From Geobacter sp. (GTDB taxonomy: Bacteria > Desulfobacterota > Desulfuromonadia > Geobacterales > Pseudopelobacteraceae), in assembly GCA_025360785.1 (NCBI GenBank), contig JANYBN010000006.1:1-38655 (forward strand): a DNA stretch of 38,655 nt, read 5' to 3'. Below, piece after piece: positions 17,405 to 26,604 of this stretch (position 1 is its first letter; every line of letters begins with the position of its first letter). Made by a program: the position numbers and the translations under genes. Below the pieces are notes generated by a model. It saw only the letters and a program-made list of their open reading frames with translations. It was not told the DNA's origin and did no database searches.

Positions 17405-19390
17405 TTATTTCTCTGTGAGTCTTACCACTTTTTCCAGGTCACATTCAACCACAACCGTCGGGGCCCCGGAATCAAGCTGTGCCAGGGCGTATATCCCGAC
17501 TGGAGTATCCTTCCCTTTGACGATCACCCGTTCCTGGCCGAGAATTGAAACCCCGTTGAATTGACCGGCGGCGATTGCCGGACGCAACTTTTCCAGAGTA
17601 TACTCCGTCATCAGAATCCGTGCGCCATAGCGTCGCGTCAGCCCCTCGACCCGTGCCCCCAGATTGACGTGGTCGCCGATAACCGTATAATCCATCTTTT
17701 TCCCCTCGGCGCCGATATTGCCGACGATCGCCTCGCCGCTGTTCAGGCCGATTCCGGAGGAAAGTGGAGCCTTTCCTTCCGCCTCCCATTTGCAGCGGAG
17801 CTGATCCAGCCGTTCCTGCATTTCAAGCGCGCAGCGCACCCCCCGTTCGGCATGGTCGTCCTGCTTCATCGGAGCGCCCCAGAACACTACAATCGCATCG
17901 CCGATGAATTTATCAAGGATCCCCTCCCATTTCATCACGATATCGGTCATTGCGCCCAGATACTCGTTGAGGATCGCGACAACCTCCTCAGGCTGGTGAT
18001 TCTCCGAATAGGTTGTAAAACTGATCACATCGGAGAAAAGGACCGTGACCTCGCGCTTCTGACCGCCAAGTTGGGCCATTTCCGGGTTGCGAATCATCTC
18101 ATTCACCAGTCGTTCGGTAACATAGCTGGAAAACATGGCGCGGATCCGGCGGGATTGTTTTTCTTCGAACAGAAGCTTGTTGACGGTTTGCGCCGTGAGG
18201 ATGACCGCCATATTTGCCATCGGGTAGATGAGCGAGAGCCAGACCCCTTCGAGGCATGTTATTTCCGACGCGACCAGATAGGCGCCCATCAGCGAAAAAC
18301 CGGTAATGACGCCGTTGCGGGCAGACAGGCGAGGCAGGAGGAGCGCCAACAGAACGGCGGTAACCAGGATTACGCCCAACTCGATGATACCCGGACTTTT
18401 GCTCATGAATTTGCCGGCAAGGATGTTTTCGACAACGGTGGCGTTTTTTTCGACACCCGGCATATCAGCGGAAAACGGCGATACCTTCTGGTCATAAGTC
18501 GCCAGTGCCGAGGTGCCGATCAGGACTATCTTGCCGGCCAGCACCCCCGCTTTGACCCTGCCGCTCAACAGGTCGGCCGCGCTGATATAGGGAAAACTGC
18601 CTTCGGCGCCGAAATAGTTGATCAGAACCCGGTTCGACAGATCCGTCGGTATGAAACGCTCTCCGAAACGAATATTTGACCCGCCGTACAGCCCAAGATC
18701 CTCCTGGCGCAATCCCCGGGCCAGACGTGCGACCTGCAGCGCCAGTGACGGATAGGCATCGTCGCCATGTTTCAGCGCCAGAATCTCCCAGCGCATGACG
18801 CCGTCCATGTCGGGATGTGAAGAGACGTGTCCCAGAGCGGCGGCAGCACGGGCTATTTCGGCCCGCGGCGGAAGCGGCCTTGCCCCCTGGATCGCCCATT
18901 GTTTCCACGGAATCCCCGCAACGCTTTTTACCTCCATGAAGGCGGCATCCCAGAGCAGGTCGTTCTGTTCCGAAGAAGTCGGGGCCGTTCCCATGGCTAC
19001 GTCGGAAAAAGCGACCGGCAGCACGACATTTCCGGCGGCCTTGACCGCCGAGGCAAGTGCCGCATCGGCGGCCGGGCTTTCCGGTTCACTGAAGAAGATA
19101 TCGATACCGATCACACCGGGATGCCCCGCGGAAACCACCTGCACAAGCCTGGCCGTCAGAGTCCGGCTCCATGGCCAGCGGCCGTACTCCTCCAGACTTT
19201 TTTCGTCCAACGCAACGATTACGATATCGTTCCGGCGTGGTGAAGGGCGCAGCTGCTCACGCAGGCGCATGCGCAGGTCGTAGGTCTTGCTCTCCAGATG
19301 TTCACGGATAACGGGAGGGTCGCGCCATTGAGCCAGAAGGGAGAGAATGGTGGTGACCAGAGCAAAAATATAAAAAACGCGATTCTTCAC
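17405..19390 (-). CDS. CHASE2-domain adenylate/guanylate cyclase
   Basis: This 661-aa membrane receptor is predicted to make a cyclic nucleotide in response to an extracytoplasmic signal. One N-terminal transmembrane anchor (about 4-21) is followed by a periplasmic CHASE2 sensor (about 30-325, with GVIGIDIFFSEP). Three membrane segments follow (about 335-400), then a class III cyclase domain (about 445-640). The metal-binding aspartates are Asp454 (FSDVISFT) and Asp498 (KFIGDAIVVFWG). Lys494 and Thr569 (DYTVIGD) occupy the base-recognition positions and favour ATP over GTP. Asn576 and Arg580 (NLGAR) are the transition-state residues, so the enzyme looks active. It starts at a GTG with AAGGA closely upstream, 30 bases after the FecR gene. 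Confidence 0.93.
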   Translation of the reverse strand: MKNRVFYIFALVTTILSLLAQWRDPPVIREHLESKTYDLRMRLREQLRPSPRRNDIVIVALDEKSLEEYGRWPWSRTLTARLVQVVSAGHPGVIGIDIFFSEPESPAADAALASAVKAAGNVVLPVAFSDVAMGTAPTSSEQNDLLWDAAFMEVKSVAGIPWKQWAIQGARPLPPRAEIARAAAALGHVSSHPDMDGVMRWEILALKHGDDAYPSLALQVARLARGLRQEDLGLYGGSNIRFGERFIPTDLSNRVLINYFGAEGSFPYISAADLLSGRVKAGVLAGKIVLIGTSALATYDQKVSPFSADMPGVEKNATVVENILAGKFMSKSPGIIELGVILVTAVLLALLLPRLSARNGVITGFSLMGAYLVASEITCLEGVWLSLIYPMANMAVILTAQTVNKLLFEEKQSRRIRAMFSSYVTERLVNEMIRNPEMAQLGGQKREVTVLFSDVISFTTYSENHQPEEVVAILNEYLGAMTDIVMKWEGILDKFIGDAIVVFWGAPMKQDDHAERGVRCALEMQERLDQLRCKWEAEGKAPLSSGIGLNSGEAIVGNIGAEGKKMDYTVIGDHVNLGARVEGLTRRYGARILMTEYTLEKLRPAIAAGQFNGVSILGQERVIVKGKDTPVGIYALAQLDSGAPTVVVECDLEKVVRLTEK

Positions 19391-19420: not shown

Positions 19421-20182
19421 CTAGAATTTGACACCGATAGTCACGCTGCTTGGCTGCTTGATCGGCTGCTGCTTATCAATAAACGGCGGCTGAATCGGCT
19501 TGATCTCCACGTTTCCGACAATGGCTCCGCCCGATGCCACGTCCGGCAGCTTGATCTCACTCCCCGAGGAAGCGGTATCCTGTTTCAACTTCTCTATCTC
19601 GGCCGGGGTAAGTTGCGTCGGCGCCGGCAGTGCCTGCCCCGACATCACCACCATCGACTGGCCGGGAGAAAGGAGTACCGGCGGGGTACCGGGAGCAGCT
19701 GTCAGCGAGCGGACGTCAACAATCCCCTCAAGACAGGTGATCCGGGTGAACGGCTGGCCGTTCAGAATCCCGGTATCGAACAGAATCACCGTGCCGCGAG
19801 CCGCCGCGACAACCGTCGGGGTTTTTACTTCGAATCTGGTCTTGCCCACTACCGCCCGCATCTTGCCGTCGATCAGGTTAAAAAGTGACTTGCCCCGGTC
19901 AGAGCGGGAGTGAATGAACGTATCGACACTCATGCGCGACTTCTCCGCCAATGTCAGCACGCTGTCATCGATAAACAGGAGCTTTACCCGCCCCCCCTCT
20001 TGAGTGGCCACGGTGTCCAGAAGTTCTATTCCCAACCGGGGTTGGGCATCGAGCCTTTTGCTACCGCGCTCAACGGTCGCCTTGCCGCGTACCGCCACAA
20101 TTGACGCAATCGATTCGGCAGACGCCGCACCGGCCAGGGTGAAAACAAATCCGCCGCATACTGCCGCAATGAGTAGTTTCAT
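19421..20182 (-). CDS. FecR-domain periplasmic protein
   Basis: The 253-aa protein begins with a signal peptide (MKLLIAAVCGGFVFTLAGA, with likely cleavage after ASA). A FecR domain (about residues 28-160) follows, containing the typical VRGKATVERG, DTVATQEGGRVKLLFID, and FEVKTPTVVAAARGT blocks. Here it is a stand-alone exported protein, not the TonB-linked anti-sigma regulator. The C-terminal 70 residues are Pro/Thr-rich and end in aromatic Phe. The start at 20182 is preceded by a GGGAAGG, and only one base separates it from the stop of the TPR-barrel gene. It is 30 bases from the CHASE2-cyclase gene. FecR proteins next to CHASE2 cyclases are a recurring arrangement, suggesting that FecR is part of the sensor. 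Confidence 0.88.
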   Translation of the reverse strand: MKLLIAAVCGGFVFTLAGAASAESIASIVAVRGKATVERGSKRLDAQPRLGIELLDTVATQEGGRVKLLFIDDSVLTLAEKSRMSVDTFIHSRSDRGKSLFNLIDGKMRAVVGKTRFEVKTPTVVAAARGTVILFDTGILNGQPFTRITCLEGIVDVRSLTAAPGTPPVLLSPGQSMVVMSGQALPAPTQLTPAEIEKLKQDTASSGSEIKLPDVASGGAIVGNVEIKPIQPPFIDKQQPIKQPSSVTIGVKF

Positions 20183-20183
20183 A

Positions 20184-21473
20184 TCAGTACCTTCCCTGGA
20201 CCATGATGCTGGTGATGCTTCTGCTGTAGTTGTATCCCGATATATTCGAATCATTGTTGCTGTATTGATACCCGAGCGACAGACCTAAGTGCTCGGATTT
20301 CTGCCAGGTCAACGAAGTGGCGCCGGTAATCGAGGTGTCCGAGCGAATGGCTGTTTCTCCGGTCAGAACATCGTCATATTTCCGGGTGGCGGCTTCCAGG
20401 GAGACATCCAGCAGGAGCGAGGCGGGCAGGGTGACGGCCAGGCCGACAGTGCCAAGATGAGCGGCGGAGCTCCATGCGGAAACTTTGGTGAGGTCGCGTT
20501 CAAAGGTATAGCCGCCGCGCAGGTTCAGGATTTCTGAAACCGGTTGACGGTGACTGAGCAGGATGGAATGAGTCGTGCCGTTGCGGTCCGTGTTGGTGGG
20601 ATACGTAGCGCTGTTGCTGAATGAAGAGCCGCGAAAGCGATATTCCAGACCGCTGGTCATTCCTTCCTTGAAGCTCGCAAACAAGCCGGGTGTTATACTG
20701 ACGTCATTGTCAAACAACTCCCCCCCGAGCAGAATCGATTCGAAGCTGCCAACGACCCTGGCCGAAAACAGCGGAGAAATCCTCCGTTTATAGGTGAGGT
20801 CCACCAGGTTCTGGGTGAGATTGAAGTCACTCAGATGCAGATGCACCGTCTGGTAGAACGAATAGCTGCCGGTCAGTTCCTGATTGCTGTCATGAAGCGC
20901 CGTGCCGTTGAGGCCGAGGTTGAATATCCCCCGCAGGTCACCCCTCCGGCTGACTCCGACCGGAAGAGGTCCGCCGTCGTTGGCAAGCGGCACGTTCGAA
21001 TCATACTGCATTCCACCTGATACGACGGCGCCCCAACGCTTGCCGTTATTCTTTTTGTAGATGGCGGCAAGATAGCCGTCCGCCGCCGCTCTCACTTCCG
21101 AATCAGGTTGCAGCGTCAGCAGATTGTCGAAGTAGTCACCGGCTTCGTCGTACATTTTCTGGTTGTAATAGAATGTTCCCAGTTCCAGATTGATGCGAAG
21201 ATTGCCCGGGTCCAGGCGCAATGCCGATTTCAGTGCGGATTCGGCAGCAGGATCATTTGCCCGGTTGAGAGCGATGGCGAGGTAGAGATTCGCTTCGCTG
21301 TCGGCGGGATGCTCTTTTAGAGCCGTCTGAAACTCCTCCTGGGCAAGGGACGGGTTCCCGGCTTCCAGGGCCGCAACGCCGCGCGCCATCCGTTTTTCAA
21401 AATCGGCTTCGGTGGCGCAGGCCGGAGCAGCAAGAAGACTGAGTGCGCCAAATATGATCAATTTCCGGAACAT
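20184..21473 (-). CDS. TPR plus outer-membrane beta-barrel protein
   Basis: The 429-aa protein has a signal peptide (MFRKLIIFGALSLLAAPACA), then three to four TPR-like repeats (about residues 22-140). About 280 residues of alternating amphipathic beta strands follow and end in a terminal aromatic residue (MVQGRY), as in outer-membrane barrels. A periplasmic TPR domain in front of a roughly 14-strand barrel matches the layout of surface lipoprotein assembly modulators (Slam, DUF560). The strands contain motifs such as GGMQYDSNVPL near the start of the barrel. It lies 14 bases after a lipoprotein gene and one base before FecR. A role in moving the neighbouring lipoprotein or repeat protein to the surface is inferred; a passive porin-like role is also possible. 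Confidence 0.78.
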   Translation of the reverse strand: MFRKLIIFGALSLLAAPACATEADFEKRMARGVAALEAGNPSLAQEEFQTALKEHPADSEANLYLAIALNRANDPAAESALKSALRLDPGNLRINLELGTFYYNQKMYDEAGDYFDNLLTLQPDSEVRAAADGYLAAIYKKNNGKRWGAVVSGGMQYDSNVPLANDGGPLPVGVSRRGDLRGIFNLGLNGTALHDSNQELTGSYSFYQTVHLHLSDFNLTQNLVDLTYKRRISPLFSARVVGSFESILLGGELFDNDVSITPGLFASFKEGMTSGLEYRFRGSSFSNSATYPTNTDRNGTTHSILLSHRQPVSEILNLRGGYTFERDLTKVSAWSSAAHLGTVGLAVTLPASLLLDVSLEAATRKYDDVLTGETAIRSDTSITGATSLTWQKSEHLGLSLGYQYSNNDSNISGYNYSRSITSIMVQGRY

Positions 21474-21487
21474 GGTTCCTCCTGCCG

Positions 21488-21985
21488 TTACTGGATAGTG
21501 GTCGTGAGGGTCGGGGTTAGACCGGTTACCCTGGCCCCGTTGGTGTCAAAAGCTTCAAAAGAGAGGAGCTTGAAGTCGCTCTCCACCGGAAACGTTCCCG
21601 AGGCCACTTTCAGGTGGATGGTAATCTCGTCGGTCGCGGCAAACCCGGCCGCAACAATTGCGGAAATTGCGAGTTCCCCCGGTGCAGTTGCCGTGGCCGG
21701 AGTGTAGGTAACCCCCGGCAGCGTTTGATTCTGGGGTGACGAGCTGGTTATCACCACGGTCGCAGAGGGGTCGGCGCTTCCGTCCGCTCTGAGAGGAGGA
21801 GCAACACCGACCGGAATAGTGATCGCCAACTGGATTCCGGCAATGTTTCTGTCTCCGGTCAGAGCCGCAGTTTTAATGACCGCCTTGATATCTCTATCGG
21901 CAGTCGCAACTTTCGTGCTGTCGCCGCATGCCGACAGCAGGGCAAGGGGCAACAGGATCAATATGTTGCAAAGCCATTTTCTCAT
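21488..21985 (-). CDS. cohesin-like lipoprotein
   Basis: The 165-aa protein starts MRKWLCNILILLPLALLSAC, with a lipobox LSAC for lipid attachment. The mature part is one beta-rich domain of about 135 residues. It has the pattern of a cohesin-type sandwich: an IAGIQLAITIP strand, a YTPATATAPGELAISAIVAAGF middle section that can be read as separate strands, and a closing FKLLSFEAFDTNGARV. The start at 21985 has GGAG 8 bases upstream. A longer frame starting at 22024 would overlap the previous stop but would bury the lipoprotein signal. It directly follows the gene for a secreted protein with a dockerin-like end, which fits an anchor for that protein. The cohesin assignment is by pattern and is not certain. 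Confidence 0.7.
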   Translation of the reverse strand: MRKWLCNILILLPLALLSACGDSTKVATADRDIKAVIKTAALTGDRNIAGIQLAITIPVGVAPPLRADGSADPSATVVITSSSPQNQTLPGVTYTPATATAPGELAISAIVAAGFAATDEITIHLKVASGTFPVESDFKLLSFEAFDTNGARVTGLTPTLTTTIQ

Positions 21986-22020
21986 GGTAGATACTCCTTG
22001 AAGGTTTCGTCCGGTGACGC

Positions 22021-25000
22021 TCATAGCCCCACCACCCGGCGCAGGGTGACGATGGTGTCGCCCAGATTGATCTCGCCGTCCGGCTCGGGTAATCCGTTTA
22101 CCAACGGCGCAACATCGCCGTGCAACAGCTCTGTTTGAGTCGGTGTTTCAATTTTCATGGCAAAGTTGAGGGACTTGAGGGCGTCGCTTAGTTGCGGCTC
22201 CAGTTTGGGAGGATCGGTGGCGGGCGCCGGAGCGATCACCCCATCGGTGGATCCGATCAGTATGGTAGCTGATTTTGGCTTGGCGATGTTTCCGGCGGCG
22301 TCTTTAGCATATGCATAAAGCGTATGATTCCCCCAGGTCGGCAAAGTGAACGAGGCGGGCGCGCCGGGCGTCCAGGCGGGATCCGAGGCAAGCGGTGGAG
22401 TGGCGCTTTCCGACATCAGATAGCCGGTGACTCCGACCGCGTCGGTCGCTGCGATAACGATACCGGATACGGTCAAAGTCGATGATGTTGCCGGAACGGT
22501 GAAGCTGGTAATGTCCGGAGCCGCCGCATCGATGGTCGGCAAGAAAACGGCAACCGCCCAGACGGACAGGTGACTCACCGCTATATCAACCGTGCCATCC
22601 GATTTGACAATCGCGGAACCTTCAAGTGTCCACTTTACGCCGTCAAAGCTGTAATACGATACCGTTGCCCCGGGTAAGGCGAATGCCGAAGAGATCGCCA
22701 GATTGACGATCATCGGCGGAGCGATGGTCTTGACCGTTGATGCTCCGGCGGAAATGATTATGTCGATGGAGTTGCCCAGCGCTGACAGTACCTTGCCGTC
22801 GGAGGTTTGTGCCGTCGCCAGTCCGCCCGGAAGAGCAGCCGTACTGTTCATTACCGATGCCGTCACGGTAAGCGTACCGCTGATCGGGTTTCCGGCGGCA
22901 TCTTTCAACAGGGTTCCGGATGCGAGAGTCACATTCGCGCCTGGAGCTGTCAGGGAAACCGGGACGGTTGTTATGCCGTCAGCTCCGGTGATGACCTGGT
23001 TTGCGGGCAGTGGGTTAACAGTGAGGTTCCCGGAGACCGGTGATGCCACGTAATAAGCTGCATTGCCGGCTTGATTGGCCACTATTGTACAGGTGCCGGT
23101 TGAAACAGGTAAAATACTGCTGCCATTTGCTCCGCTGACTGTACAGACGAGGGGTGTGGCGGAGGCGAAGGTAACCGGATTGCCGGAACCGCCTCCTGTG
23201 GCACTGACCGTGCTACTGCCGCCAACCGCCAGAGTTGACGGCAAGAAGCTGATCACGCCGATAGTCTGGCTTTGCATAACAGGCGGAACGACGGACAACA
23301 CCACGCTGGCAGGGTTGTAGGCCACGTTCCACGACTTGCCGCCGGTCAGTGGGGGCAGGTTGGTGGTAACGAATGTGCCGCTGCACGCTGTACCGCAGGT
23401 CAGGATGGTAAAGCTGTCTCCTGCAGGAGGGTCATAGCCGTTCAGGGCCAAGTTCAGGGTCCCGCTGATAGCTGTCGTGCCGCCGACTTCAACCTGATCA
23501 TTAGTGGCGGCGCCGGAGATGTCGATATAGAAGACATCGGTTCCCGTCATGCTCATGCCGGTGAAGGAAAGGAGACCGCTCGTTCCCGGAGTCGCGGGCT
23601 TGATCGCGCCGGCGTTGCTGAAGGTGCCAGATGTAATGGTAGAGACATCGACTGTGCCGGTTCCCGTGATGATCCCTGAGTTTGTAAAACTTCCGTAAAC
23701 TCCCGTGCCATTCAGCGTTACGCTGTTCCCGGCCCCGGTGTCGATGGTGCCGCTGTTTGTGAAGATGCTGCCCATTGGCATGTTGATGTTTAAGGATTTG
23801 TTGACGGTAATGGTACCGCTGTTGGTGTTGGCGGATGCGCCGATGACAAGAGTTGATGGATTTGCTCCCGTGAAGGTCATGGTGCCGGTGTTCTCCAGGA
23901 TGCCGGTAATTGTGCCGGTGACGGTCATGGCGCCGTTGTTCTTCAGGAGGCCAACGCTTAAAAAAGCAGAGTTGTCGAGCGAAATCGCTCCGAAGTTGGT
24001 GAGCATGTTGCCGCTGACCTGCGAACCCGGATTGGCCACGTACAACAATCCGCCGGGAGCGATGCTGCTGGCGCCGATGAGGCTCAGGGAATGGTCGCTG
24101 TTTCTCTTCACGCTCAAAGTCTGAACGCCGCTGGCGGCTCCAAGGACCATATCGAGTACGGAGGCAGCCTGATCGAGGTCAACGTTGTAGGTGCCCGGCA
24201 GCGTGATGTTGACATGTTCCGCAGCAGAGGGGATGTGCCCGCAGTCCCAGTTACCAACTGTGCTCCAGAGACCGTCTGCTGCTGCACCGGTCCAATTGCA
24301 TGCAGGTTCGACGGCGCCGATGTCACAGCTGGCCGGGAGAGGGCGGGTGCCCCCCCGCTGGTCTTTAGAGAGACAGGTCGCCGGATTACCGGCGTTGAGG
24401 GCCGGGCTTCCGGAGAGAAGGGCATGGGTGTCGGTCGGGCCGCCGTTGTTGAGGAGCGGCTCAAGAAGCGCCGGTGCTGAAATGAAGACGCTTCCGGCAG
24501 CAGTGGATCCGGACAGCACATCAATTATGCTGCTATTAACTGTAGGCGGTGTGCCTCCTGCGAGCAGGTCCGCCGGGCTGTTGGTGGTGTTACCGCTAAG
24601 AATGGTGTTGTCGATGGTCAAAAAATCGCCGAAATAGTTGTCGAGCGCTGCCGAGCTGATGGAGGTGGTGGTATTTCCGGTTATGGTGGAGTTGTTGAGG
24701 GTGAGGCTGCTGCCGCCGCTGTAATTGTAGATACCACCCCCATCTACGGAAGTATTGCCGCTAATGGTGGAGTTGTTGATAAATAAAATGTTGGAGTCGT
24801 TATAGATCCCCCCGCCGGAGGAAGCGGCGCTGTTACCGGCTACGGTCACATCATTCAGGATCATCGTGCCGGAATTCGCTATACCGCCGCCATTGCCGGG
24901 GGGGCCGGTACTTGGGGCACTGTTTCCTATTACCGCAACTTTGTTCAGGGTCAGGCTGCCAGAGTTAAAAACAGCCCCACCATTAAAAGTGCCAGTATTG

Positions 25001-25356
25001 GCATTCCCATTGGTTAGAGTAACGCCTTCGACCACTACTGCTGCACTGCTAACATTGAAAATTCTGCTGCTGCCGCCACCGCTTATGGTCAGGCTGCGCG
25101 CGCCGGGGCCGGTGATGGTGAGGCTTTTGCTAATCGCTATTTCACCCGAGGTAAGGGTGATCAGGGTTATTCCTGCGTTAAAGTCGATGGTGTCGCCTGT
25201 TGCTGCGGCATCCAGTACCGCCTGCCGCAACGAACCGGCACCATTGTCACCGTTGTTGATTACGGTCAATGTCGCCGCTTCAGCACCCGCAGACAGCCCC
25301 AGCAATATCAGTAATATTACAACCTGCACGATGGCCTGACGAACCCGGTTTCTCAT
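22021..25356 (-). CDS. secreted beta-helix repeat protein with dockerin-like C-terminus
   Basis: The 1111-aa protein has a signal peptide (about residues 1-27). A right-handed parallel beta-helix follows (about 28-300), built from repeats such as GGGIYNDSN and TISGNTS. Next come the choice-of-anchor Q type block with LLSGSPALNAG and DQRGGTRPLPASCDIG (about 320-350), a second repeat region rich in N.G.IT motifs (about 350-600), and bacterial Ig-like domains (about 690-1020). The last 32 residues contain GDVAPLVNG and PDGEINLGDTIVTLRRVVG. This resembles one calcium-binding F-hand of a dockerin module, with Asp at the expected ligand spacing. AGAGG precedes the ATG by about 8 bases. Low charge and high Ser, Thr, Gly and Ala content suit a surface adhesin or matrix protein. 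Confidence 0.85.
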   Translation of the reverse strand: MRNRVRQAIVQVVILLILLGLSAGAEAATLTVINNGDNGAGSLRQAVLDAAATGDTIDFNAGITLITLTSGEIAISKSLTITGPGARSLTISGGGSSRIFNVSSAAVVVEGVTLTNGNANTGTFNGGAVFNSGSLTLNKVAVIGNSAPSTGPPGNGGGIANSGTMILNDVTVAGNSAASSGGGIYNDSNILFINNSTISGNTSVDGGGIYNYSGGSSLTLNNSTITGNTTTSISSAALDNYFGDFLTIDNTILSGNTTNSPADLLAGGTPPTVNSSIIDVLSGSTAAGSVFISAPALLEPLLNNGGPTDTHALLSGSPALNAGNPATCLSKDQRGGTRPLPASCDIGAVEPACNWTGAAADGLWSTVGNWDCGHIPSAAEHVNITLPGTYNVDLDQAASVLDMVLGAASGVQTLSVKRNSDHSLSLIGASSIAPGGLLYVANPGSQVSGNMLTNFGAISLDNSAFLSVGLLKNNGAMTVTGTITGILENTGTMTFTGANPSTLVIGASANTNSGTITVNKSLNINMPMGSIFTNSGTIDTGAGNSVTLNGTGVYGSFTNSGIITGTGTVDVSTITSGTFSNAGAIKPATPGTSGLLSFTGMSMTGTDVFYIDISGAATNDQVEVGGTTAISGTLNLALNGYDPPAGDSFTILTCGTACSGTFVTTNLPPLTGGKSWNVAYNPASVVLSVVPPVMQSQTIGVISFLPSTLAVGGSSTVSATGGGSGNPVTFASATPLVCTVSGANGSSILPVSTGTCTIVANQAGNAAYYVASPVSGNLTVNPLPANQVITGADGITTVPVSLTAPGANVTLASGTLLKDAAGNPISGTLTVTASVMNSTAALPGGLATAQTSDGKVLSALGNSIDIIISAGASTVKTIAPPMIVNLAISSAFALPGATVSYYSFDGVKWTLEGSAIVKSDGTVDIAVSHLSVWAVAVFLPTIDAAAPDITSFTVPATSSTLTVSGIVIAATDAVGVTGYLMSESATPPLASDPAWTPGAPASFTLPTWGNHTLYAYAKDAAGNIAKPKSATILIGSTDGVIAPAPATDPPKLEPQLSDALKSLNFAMKIETPTQTELLHGDVAPLVNGLPEPDGEINLGDTIVTLRRVVGL

Positions 25357-25392: not shown

Positions 25393-26604
25393 TTACAGCA
25401 CCGCCACCCTGCCCGCATCACGGGGCGCTTCCGCCTCGCCGGTCGAAACCTGCACCGCCCGGTAGAGCCGCTCCATCTCGGTAATAATCCCGGCGTAGGC
25501 CCGCTGGAAAGCTGCATGCGGCACCTCGCGCATCAGGTAATGAATCGGCACGACCCACTCGGGGATCATCAGAAACGGCCCCTGCACCTTGTCCAGTACG
25601 ATGTTCATCGCCTCGACGTTGTCGGCATCGTAAAAGGGGCGCTTCTTCAGGACGTGATTGAGGGTGTCGTAGCTTTTATAGGCTTCGGCAGGCTTGCCGA
25701 TCAGTGTGTTGCAGGGATTGAAGGGGGTGCCGGGTTCGAAGAGAGCTTCCAGCTGTCCGGGATTCAGCAGTTCCCACACCTGCGGCGGGTAGGTGGCGTC
25801 ACAGGGATACCAGTCGTCGCCGATTTTGAAGACGGCGAAGTAATGTTTGACACTCGGTTCAATCGCCAGGATGTGGTGGTATCCCTCCGGCACCAGCGGC
25901 TTCATCCGCTCCGAGGGAAAATCGATTTCGCCGAAGACCGCCTCGACCCCGCAGGCCCTGAGCAGCGCCACCTGCAGGTTGGTTTTGGTGGTGCACATGC
26001 CGTAGCCCATCTGCAGCACCTGCGACGCCAGCATGTTCCAGAAGCCGAAGCGATATGGGAGATAGCGGACGTAATCCCAGATATTCTGGGCAGTTTCCCA
26101 CGAGTCGTAACCGATCAGAAACTCGGCCATATGCTGGATGGCAGGGTGCTCGTGATCACAATGCTGTTCGAGGGTTTTGGAGTAATGGCCGTAACCGCCG
26201 GTCAGTTTGGCATAGCGCACCCGAACATAAGGCGCCATGCCGATGAAGAGGCGGGTCAGAACGTCCATAATTTCGGGATCCATACGTGGCGATATAACCC
26301 GGCGGTCAAGCCGCCAGAGAGTACAACCGCTCATGCCAGCGCGGGCTGTTGTTGTACGGGGGGTGCGCAGGATGAAGCCTATCTCGCCCAGGATATCACC
26401 CGGGCCCAGCCAGACGACCGGCAGATCCTGACCGGCTTTGTACAGGTTGATATCCCCCTGGATGATGACGTGCATTTCTCCGGAGGAGGAGTTGGCATCA
26501 AAAAGCGTTGCCCCGGGGGCGAGAGTAAGCGATGAGCCGATCTGCTGAAGCCTGTCGAGATATTCTGCCCTCAAGGCAACTGATAATTTAGTGGATGACA
26601 ACAT
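25393..26604 (-). CDS. cyclic nucleotide-binding domain fused to a transglutaminase-like domain
   Basis: The 403-aa protein has an N-terminal cNMP-binding beta-roll (about residues 15-115, with LGPGDILGEIGFILRTPRTT resembling the phosphate-binding cassette). A transglutaminase-like cysteine-protease fold follows (about 180-290). The expected catalytic triad is present: Cys204 in GYGMCTTK, His254 in VKHYFAVF and Asp269 in WYPCDATYPP. No signal peptide is seen, so it should act in the cytoplasm. AGGAG lies 7 bases before the ATG. It follows glnE by 24 bases and precedes the dockerin-type protein by 36. In the cassette RTPRTTTA, Arg and Thr fit either cAMP or cGMP. A cyclic-nucleotide-gated peptidase or cross-linking enzyme is the natural reading, but no substrate is known. 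Confidence 0.83.
   Translation of the reverse strand: MLSSTKLSVALRAEYLDRLQQIGSSLTLAPGATLFDANSSSGEMHVIIQGDINLYKAGQDLPVVWLGPGDILGEIGFILRTPRTTTARAGMSGCTLWRLDRRVISPRMDPEIMDVLTRLFIGMAPYVRVRYAKLTGGYGHYSKTLEQHCDHEHPAIQHMAEFLIGYDSWETAQNIWDYVRYLPYRFGFWNMLASQVLQMGYGMCTTKTNLQVALLRACGVEAVFGEIDFPSERMKPLVPEGYHHILAIEPSVKHYFAVFKIGDDWYPCDATYPPQVWELLNPGQLEALFEPGTPFNPCNTLIGKPAEAYKSYDTLNHVLKKRPFYDADNVEAMNIVLDKVQGPFLMIPEWVVPIHYLMREVPHAAFQRAYAGIITEMERLYRAVQVSTGEAEAPRDAGRVAVL

Follow-up and report, generated by a model that had tools for sequence, protein, structure and literature searches.

The DNA analysed here, called the window, is a stretch of 38,655 nucleotides from a Geobacter sp. (positions 1 to 38,655 of contig JANYBN010000006.1, assembly GCA_025360785.1). 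Two adjacent genes on its reverse strand encode a large secreted protein and a small lipoprotein, which a sequence-only reading had proposed to be a non-cellulosomal dockerin–cohesin pair on the cell surface. This proposal was followed up by profile searches, structure prediction and comparison with 58 related genomes. The two genes and their parts are as follows.

22021..25356, reverse strand: secreted surface protein of 1111 residues, from the list of open reading frames (ORFs), with a signal peptide, a beta-helix-like head, a stalk and a C-terminal dockerin
24307..25269, reverse strand: beta-helix-type head with a choice-of-anchor Q domain at its end (NCBIfam NF041518)
22189..23178, reverse strand: stalk, residues 727-1056 at most, common over varying lengths to the proteins that other species have at this locus (blastp)
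22024..22188 (approximate), reverse strand: dockerin module, consisting of the first-repeat helix, the extended second F-hand GDVAPL..PDGEINLGD and a helix (alignment A2)
21488..21985, reverse strand: lipoprotein of 165 residues with a predicted cohesin fold, defined by its start and ribosome-binding site, its model, Foldseek and its family
21926..21928, reverse strand: lipobox cysteine (LLSAC) and predicted lipid anchor, from the sequence, with glycine at +2
21491..21916, reverse strand: cohesin-like beta-sandwich, the part modelled with AlphaFold2 (predicted local distance difference test, pLDDT, 85.8; predicted template-modelling score, pTM, 0.80)

The large protein ends in LLHGDVAPLVNGLPEPDGEINLGDTIVTLRRVVGL. 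A dockerin-like segment of 32 residues had been seen at 22024-22119, and GDVAPLVNG does start at 22119 and the last codon does end at 22024. This segment stands as the second half of a dockerin, but the length does not, because the module is longer and the upstream helix SDALKSLNFAMKI belongs to it. Several aligned relatives (alignment A2) have a full first F-hand in the SDALKSLNFAMKI region, and a canonical first loop, e.g. GDLNGDGTVDISDALKALRIAVG, is found in the tails of many relatives, where both repeats are intact. Across the aligned related loci, the second loop is conserved as GDVAPL-x-NG-x-P-x-PDG-x-I-x-x-GD and is followed by a helix. By alignment, the window tail has this second loop and both helices, the helix of the first repeat having been kept. 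Its second loop has an insertion between positions 1 and 5 and keeps Asp at 1, 5 and 12; a reading of the sequence finds these loop residues retained in the second loop only. Judged by its sequence, the tail of the window protein is thus a probable dockerin with a degenerate first half and an insertion in the second F-hand loop.

The Pfam family Dockerin_1 (PF00404) matched 6 of 19 aligned tails (best E-value, 1.2e-5). In the window's own genome, a Pfam search for dockerins matched none of the five tails, and its sole match was a different protein on contig C184. Dockerins in the PDB matched the tail profile weakly (E-values of 0.029 for 2y3n, 0.051 for 2ccl, 0.11 for 5m2s, 0.16 for 5m2o, 0.35 for 1ohz and 2 for 5lxv), with a chaperone, 9r9o (E 0.87), standing among these six. 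The top PDB match of the profile, the designed toroid 4yxx (E 2.5e-7), was discounted as the sum of six weak repeat matches. For the rest of the 1111-residue protein, Pfam gave no match above its cut-off, while NCBIfam placed choice_anch_Q (NF041518) at residues 297-350 (E 4e-22, 78 bits against a cut-off of 25) and a barrel_OmpL47 or OmpL47-type match below the cut-off at residues 994-1033. Neither database gave an enzyme domain above the cut-off, or any glycoside hydrolase, in this protein, in agreement with the earlier statement that it has no carbohydrate-active domain.

The lipoprotein had been taken to start at 22024, where the start of a 178-residue ORF overlaps the stop of the large gene. 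To judge from the sequence, translation most likely begins instead at the ATG at 21985, which has AAGGAG just upstream and the lipobox signal MRKWLCNILILLPLALLSAC after it, giving a protein of 165 residues. The lipobox cysteine is followed by glycine and then aspartate; under the sorting rule of E. coli, glycine at +2 favours the outer membrane. A lipobox pattern was present in 34 of 39 ORFs of the lipoprotein family. Neither Pfam nor NCBIfam gave anything above the cut-off for the window lipoprotein, and identification by sequence alone failed: Pfam, NCBIfam (used for the window protein only) and the PDB yielded nothing better than matches below the cut-off or at chance level. For L119, a divergent lipoprotein adjoining a tail, PF00963 (Cohesin) was matched at E 0.035, under the cut-off.

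The AlphaFold2 model of the lipoprotein domain, made from 24 sequences, has eight strands. When it was compared with 350,542 PDB chains by Foldseek, ranks 1-31 of the 483 matches were all cohesins (E 0.009-0.13), identified as such by entry title and, in complexes, by inferring the cohesin chain from length and order. The best was 3ghp_B (E 9.1e-3, probability 1.00), and the non-cellulosomal cohesin of Archaeoglobus fulgidus (2xdh) was at rank 2. Ranks 32-50 were occupied by other folds (probability 0.05-0.72) with a few more cohesins between. Cohesins also led the matches of a second model, containing the related lipoprotein of locus L106, with 2xdh first at E 1.9e-4; an unrelated protease, 8xai, appeared at ranks 7, 11 and 12 of that list (probability 0.15-0.20). 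The cohesin-like strand pattern noticed in the sequence is therefore backed by structure prediction and by a fold search in which the 31 best PDB matches are cohesins. By its predicted fold, the window lipoprotein would be a cohesin, and almost only a cohesin domain.

The tail profile found matches in 49 of the 58 related genomes, the lipoprotein profile in 45. Each of the 45 cohesin-bearing genomes had tails, and all nine tail-less genomes were without a cohesin (Fisher p 7e-8). Of 150 tails among the matches listed, 92 had a same-strand lipoprotein-family match within 2 kb on the 3' side, where about 0.14 would be expected by chance, and these paired tails were spread over 36 genomes; the tail profile (A2) had been built from tails upstream of lipoproteins and favours paired subfamilies. 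Extending the distance to 2.5 kb added only 2 neighbours among the matches listed, one in the same order but farther away and one on the opposite strand. The cohesin domain lay within 400 bp of the tail in 66 of the 92 listed pairs and 0.77-1.9 kb away in the other 26; in the inspected lipoproteins of the more distant pairs, an extra N-terminal region precedes the cohesin. Pairs in the same order occur in several different neighbourhoods, with up to 6 profile-detected pairs per genome. Pairs were also found in named isolates, among them Geobacter sp. OR-1, Geomonas sp. Red32, G. limicola, Geotalea toluenoxydans and Geomesophilobacter sediminis, and in one metagenome-assembled genome of Nitrospirota. 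Thus, the genes for the dockerin protein and the lipoprotein stay together across related genomes, as the sequence-only reading had expected of a true pair. The results of scanning with the broad alignments A1 and A2 were set aside, as these alignments lacked conserved columns.

The window's own genome has five tails by the tail profile, four of which are followed by a profile-detected cohesin (contigs C29, C229, C176 and C139; the C229 lipoprotein has an atypical lipobox, LLPGC). The fifth (C4) is followed by a lipoprotein of 190 residues that was missed in the genome-wide search; when compared with the profile by itself, it reaches 20 bits, and it is 45% and 40% identical to the tail-adjoining lipoproteins of L104 and L102, respectively. 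The six cohesin-profile matches in this genome are single domains at separate places, although divergent cohesins could be missed by the profile. No glycoside hydrolase was found in the four other dockerin proteins of the genome, two of which are cut by contig ends; Glucodextran_B and CHB_HEX_C_1, accessory immunoglobulin (Ig)-like domains named after polysaccharide-degrading enzymes, are present among two of the four.

At locus L106, the dockerin and lipoprotein genes are in one frame with 10 bases between the open frames. The pair was modelled as a single chain from the contiguous DNA, with stops read as glycine and 42 further aligned rows. This read-through model had a pLDDT of 84.5 and a pTM of 0.76 over 250 residues; most blocks of both modules were above a pLDDT of 90, with a linker of about 30-40 residues near 44-53. 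From the pTM formula with estimated domain sizes, undocked domains would be expected to give a pTM of about 0.50-0.63 at an inter-domain error of at least 12 Å, and a docked pair 0.70-0.83. The observed value is above the undocked expectation and was therefore taken as support for docking. The putative mutual binding of the dockerin tail and the lipoprotein thus has indirect support, from a model of the related L106 pair.

The same locus was then compared among species. The CHASE2 cyclase encoded nearby in the window shares 84-87% identity with its counterparts in five species and 56-64% with those in four others, and the tetratricopeptide repeat (TPR)-barrel protein encoded next to the lipoprotein is 55-72% identical to that of the window in eight species and 36% in G051. 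The dockerin proteins of seven species matched the window protein by blastp only from a point between residues 727 and 980 to the end, with 53-72% identity. In G044, whose CHASE2 gene sits on another contig, the last 87 residues matched at 43%, together with scattered repeats between residues 327 and 780. Residues 1-326 of the window protein had no blastp match in the eight other dockerin proteins of this locus, of which two (G015, G020) are short fragments and three (G018, G023, G044) are cut N-terminally, so that the heads are informative in six. These heads contained RCC1 repeats (G017), an InlB B-repeat and Big_5 (G032), Big_3_5 (G008), ASH-type Ig repeats (G018), fn3 with a below-cut-off propeller match (G023), or laminin G with MBG repeats (G044). 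Conserved flanking genes and a conserved dockerin end beside differing heads suggest, at the level of sequence, that the anchor and stalk are constant and that the head is exchanged or diverges fast.

Based on the dockerin homology of the tail, the predicted cohesin fold, the fixed-order pairing far beyond chance and the constant end with differing heads, we consider it probable (about 0.82) that the two genes form a cognate dockerin–cohesin pair, in which the lipid-anchored cohesin displays the dockerin-tailed protein on the cell, as had been proposed for these adjacent genes. The large protein would be exported with its dockerin at the C-terminus, the lipid of the lipoprotein would hold the cohesin in the outer membrane, and the cohesin face would clamp the dockerin, so that the large protein would not need its own membrane anchor to be displayed. 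The head could be exchanged while the anchor stays the same. We infer an outer-surface location for the pair and adhesion or display as its function, and the interaction would presumably depend on calcium; a role in adhesion or in a matrix is possible.

Several results weigh against this reading, and the case is computational throughout. On the side of the tail, the canonical first calcium loop, present in relatives, is lost in the window protein by alignment, and the window tail itself matches no Pfam family, Dockerin_1 included. On the side of the lipoprotein, PF00963 matched none of 38 aligned domains of the family in Pfam, and the lipoprotein profile found no PDB cohesin by sequence. No Foldseek match of the window model reached E 1e-3, and the TM-scores of the 31 cohesins were only 0.34-0.52 by query length; the lipoprotein family is therefore divergent. 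The inference of docking comes from pTM alone, with no predicted aligned error matrix, coordinates or negative control, and was made on the relative L106; at an inter-domain error of 8 Å, undocked domains would give a pTM of 0.62-0.70. As for the pairing, among the matches listed, 58 of the 150 tails lacked a profile-detected cohesin within 2 kb, and for 50 of the 142 cohesins there was no listed tail. In the named genomes, a scan with tail patterns alone (taken from ten of the tails of profile A2) gave 47 loci, in which only 24 of the 52 tails that had 800 bp or more of downstream sequence had a profile-detected cohesin within 2 kb; 3 more tails were set aside at contig ends. The 28 unpaired tails include tandem dockerin genes, gammaproteobacterial tails and some beside cohesin-like-looking lipoproteins.

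The moderate TM-scores and the failure of PF00963 to match any of the 38 domains would also fit a lipoprotein that is some other Ig-like beta-sandwich, e.g. a pilin-like one or one like a carbohydrate-binding module, beside a tail that is an unrelated, free calcium module. Cohesins took the top 31 of 483 Foldseek places, however, with other folds appearing at ranks 32-50 and probabilities of 0.05-0.72, and L119 came close to PF00963 at its below-cut-off E-value; we regard this explanation as very improbable. A genuine dockerin and a genuine cohesin might, on the other hand, each bind another partner from a repertoire of pairs, their genes being merely co-inherited. Cohesin–dockerin systems can be cross-specific between paralogues, genomes hold up to 6 profile-detected pairs and the docking model was made on L106 rather than on the window pair, all of which count for this alternative. 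The same-order adjacency in 36 genomes and in several different neighbourhoods, and the pTM of 0.76 for the single-chain model of a natural pair, make it quite unlikely.

The lipoprotein could also act as a chaperone or secretion adaptor, in the periplasm or at the outer membrane, whose cohesin-like fold grips the tail during export only, after which the mature protein is released. The tail is conserved while the heads vary, as in a sorting domain, and the third gene of the row encodes a TPR-barrel protein with a below-cut-off match to the Slam/type 11 secretion family, both of which would suit such an adaptor. Yet relatives of the TPR-barrel protein adjoin only 11 of the pairs found, and stable anchoring, not transient chaperoning, is what the cohesin fold is known for, so that we consider release after export unlikely and retain a cognate pair that displays the large protein.

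The pair is part of a row in the order dockerin protein, cohesin lipoprotein, TPR-barrel protein, FecR-domain protein and CHASE2 cyclase. The last three are as follows.

20184..21473, reverse strand: TPR protein of 429 residues with a C-terminal beta-barrel-like part (Pfam TPR; SlipAM and BBP2_2 below the cut-off)
19421..20254, reverse strand: FecR-domain protein (Pfam FecR, E 1e-13)
17405..19390, reverse strand: CHASE2 sensor with an adenylate/guanylate cyclase domain (Pfam)

The position of a TPR and barrel gene directly beside a lipoprotein gene is the same as that described for Slam, or type 11 secretion (DUF560, PF04575), in the relevant parts of PMC8406197. The protein here differs in that it matches PF04575 (SlipAM) only below the cut-off (18.0 bits against 22). 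Among the 22 TPR-barrel matches listed, the 10 best (E at most 6e-70, own copy included) and the contig-cut copy of G044 adjoin a cohesin, and the other 11 are not beside one. An obligatory exporter was rejected on the grounds that the protein adjoins only 11 of the cohesins; as a hypothesis, it could export the lipoprotein in a Slam-like manner. Distances between CHASE2 genes and cohesins were determined for the best 38 of the CHASE2 matches listed: 14 of the best 22 (own copy included) were within 6 kb of a cohesin, and none of the next 16 were.

In G014, G008 (C91) and G035 (C52), a CHASE2 cyclase is within 100 bp of a cohesin in another arrangement, a hint at a sensory link. Just upstream of the window pair, 25393-26604 encodes a fusion of a cyclic-nucleotide-binding and a transglutaminase-like domain; in G017 and G008, the corresponding space of this locus holds no called gene. 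Elsewhere, gammaproteobacterial and other non-Geobacter tails with GDVAPLV occur without a profile-found cohesin (L114-L118, L120, L123 and L126), the tail of L118 being adjoined by a lipoprotein of another look. Two to three dockerin-tailed proteins stand in tandem in L090, L093, L094 and L098, many with an aromatic last residue, and in L094 and L098 a lipoprotein lies some way downstream of these rows.

A subset of the tails lies near multiheme cytochrome genes. Of 98 distinct tails in the loci retrieved, 15 had an ORF with at least four CXXCH motifs within 4 kb, and 8 of the 15 had a detected cohesin; the choice of loci L128-L143 had largely, though not exclusively, favoured tails lacking a detected cohesin. 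Two of these tails are from the window's own genome (C229, C139). As open frames, 13 of the 15 cytochrome-near dockerin proteins are 894-957 residues long, and NHL repeats were found in nine of the ten scanned with Pfam (not in C139). They would form an NHL-propeller/Ig branch of dockerin proteins of about 900-950 residues, about half with a detected cohesin neighbour, beside ORFs with 4-43 CXXCH motifs. No ORF with at least four CXXCH motifs is present in the window, and with only 15 of 98 tails near such an ORF, the idea that the pairs are members of cytochrome clusters in general was rejected. The cytochrome-near pairs may anchor electron-transfer proteins. More tentatively, and at somewhat less than even odds, the Geobacterales may hold several parallel, possibly mutually specific cohesin lipoprotein sockets on which interchangeable dockerin-tailed proteins are mounted at the outer membrane, and of which those for the NHL/Ig branch and a multicopper oxidase would be a mechanical anchor of extracellular electron transfer.

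The cohesin-paired loci beside ORFs with 4-43 CXXCH motifs are L042 (C229 of the window's own genome, 235-11488), L091, L092, L097, L103, L109 and L112; their dockerin proteins have about 910-1120 residues, and Pfam found NHL repeats in the four scanned, L042, L097, L103 and L109. Six further loci (L128, L131, L133, L134, L136 and L139) encode dockerin proteins of 894-926 residues with no detected cohesin neighbour, each tail being directly followed by an ORF with 4-23 CXXCH motifs; here, Pfam found NHL repeats in the four scanned, L128, L131, L134 and L136. The downstream cytochrome of L134 matched PDB entry 7tfs (E 1.9e-19), which we take to be the OmcE filament. In Geobacter sp. OR-1 (L096, 4355-7177), a multicopper oxidase has an intact two-repeat dockerin end and is followed by a cohesin lipoprotein.

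The pair resembles the cellulosomal pairs of Clostridium thermocellum, Acetivibrio and Ruminococcus (PF00963/PF00404) in having a C-terminal dockerin, of two F-hand repeats in many relatives, on a secreted protein and a single-domain cohesin partner, whose best Foldseek matches are type II and related cohesins. It differs in that no scaffoldin was found, the window protein contains no cellulase, each lipoprotein has one cohesin and a predicted lipid anchor, the cell is Gram-negative and the partner genes are adjacent. In addition, the tail here has a degenerate first F-hand loop and an extended second one, and the lipoprotein family and the window tail are below Pfam detection. Neither a multi-cohesin scaffoldin nor a dockerin-bearing polysaccharide-degrading enzyme was found among the profile matches of the window's own genome and its five dockerin proteins. 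The A. fulgidus protein (2xdh) is likewise an isolated cohesin outside a cellulosome; here, unlike there, the lipoprotein family is found in 45 of 58 related genomes, mostly beside a dockerin protein, with up to 6 pairs per genome.

Non-cellulosomal cohesin and dockerin modules have reportedly been reviewed by Peer et al. in 2009. In the titles and abstract openings of the papers listed on cohesins and dockerins of Geobacter or of outer-membrane lipoproteins, we saw no such pair, although that review may mention Geobacter. In anaerobic methanotrophic (ANME) archaea and their sulfate-reducing partners, non-cellulosomal cohesin and dockerin proteins are proposed, in passages of PMC9012536 and PMC10553843, to be adhesins or cell-surface links in syntrophic aggregates. 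As those passages have it, these proteins were found by standard domain annotation, whereas the lipoprotein family here is unmatched by the Pfam cohesin model. Soil Geobacter express dockerin-bearing fibronectin, sialidase and copper-protein genes, which the passages on them in PMC6199725 read as suggesting cellulose degradation. These are probably the same kind of dockerin protein as here, and those passages mention no cohesin partner. As far as these sources go, non-cellulosomal cohesins and dockerins are already known, and the lipoprotein–dockerin pair of Geobacter would be a new form of a known principle.

The pair may provide a concrete mechanism for holding large secreted proteins on the surface of Gram-negative metal-reducing bacteria, and it points to a cohesin family missed by the Pfam cohesin model. 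It also offers another reading of the Geobacter dockerin transcripts that were taken, in the passages of PMC6199725 concerned, to point to cellulose use. Lipid-anchored sockets that come naturally paired could be useful as display parts, and the named isolates that carry pairs include Geobacter sp. OR-1 and Geomonas. Some sister pairs are found within clusters of multiheme cytochrome genes, and one of the dockerin proteins is a multicopper oxidase, which makes it directly testable how such extracellular redox proteins are attached.

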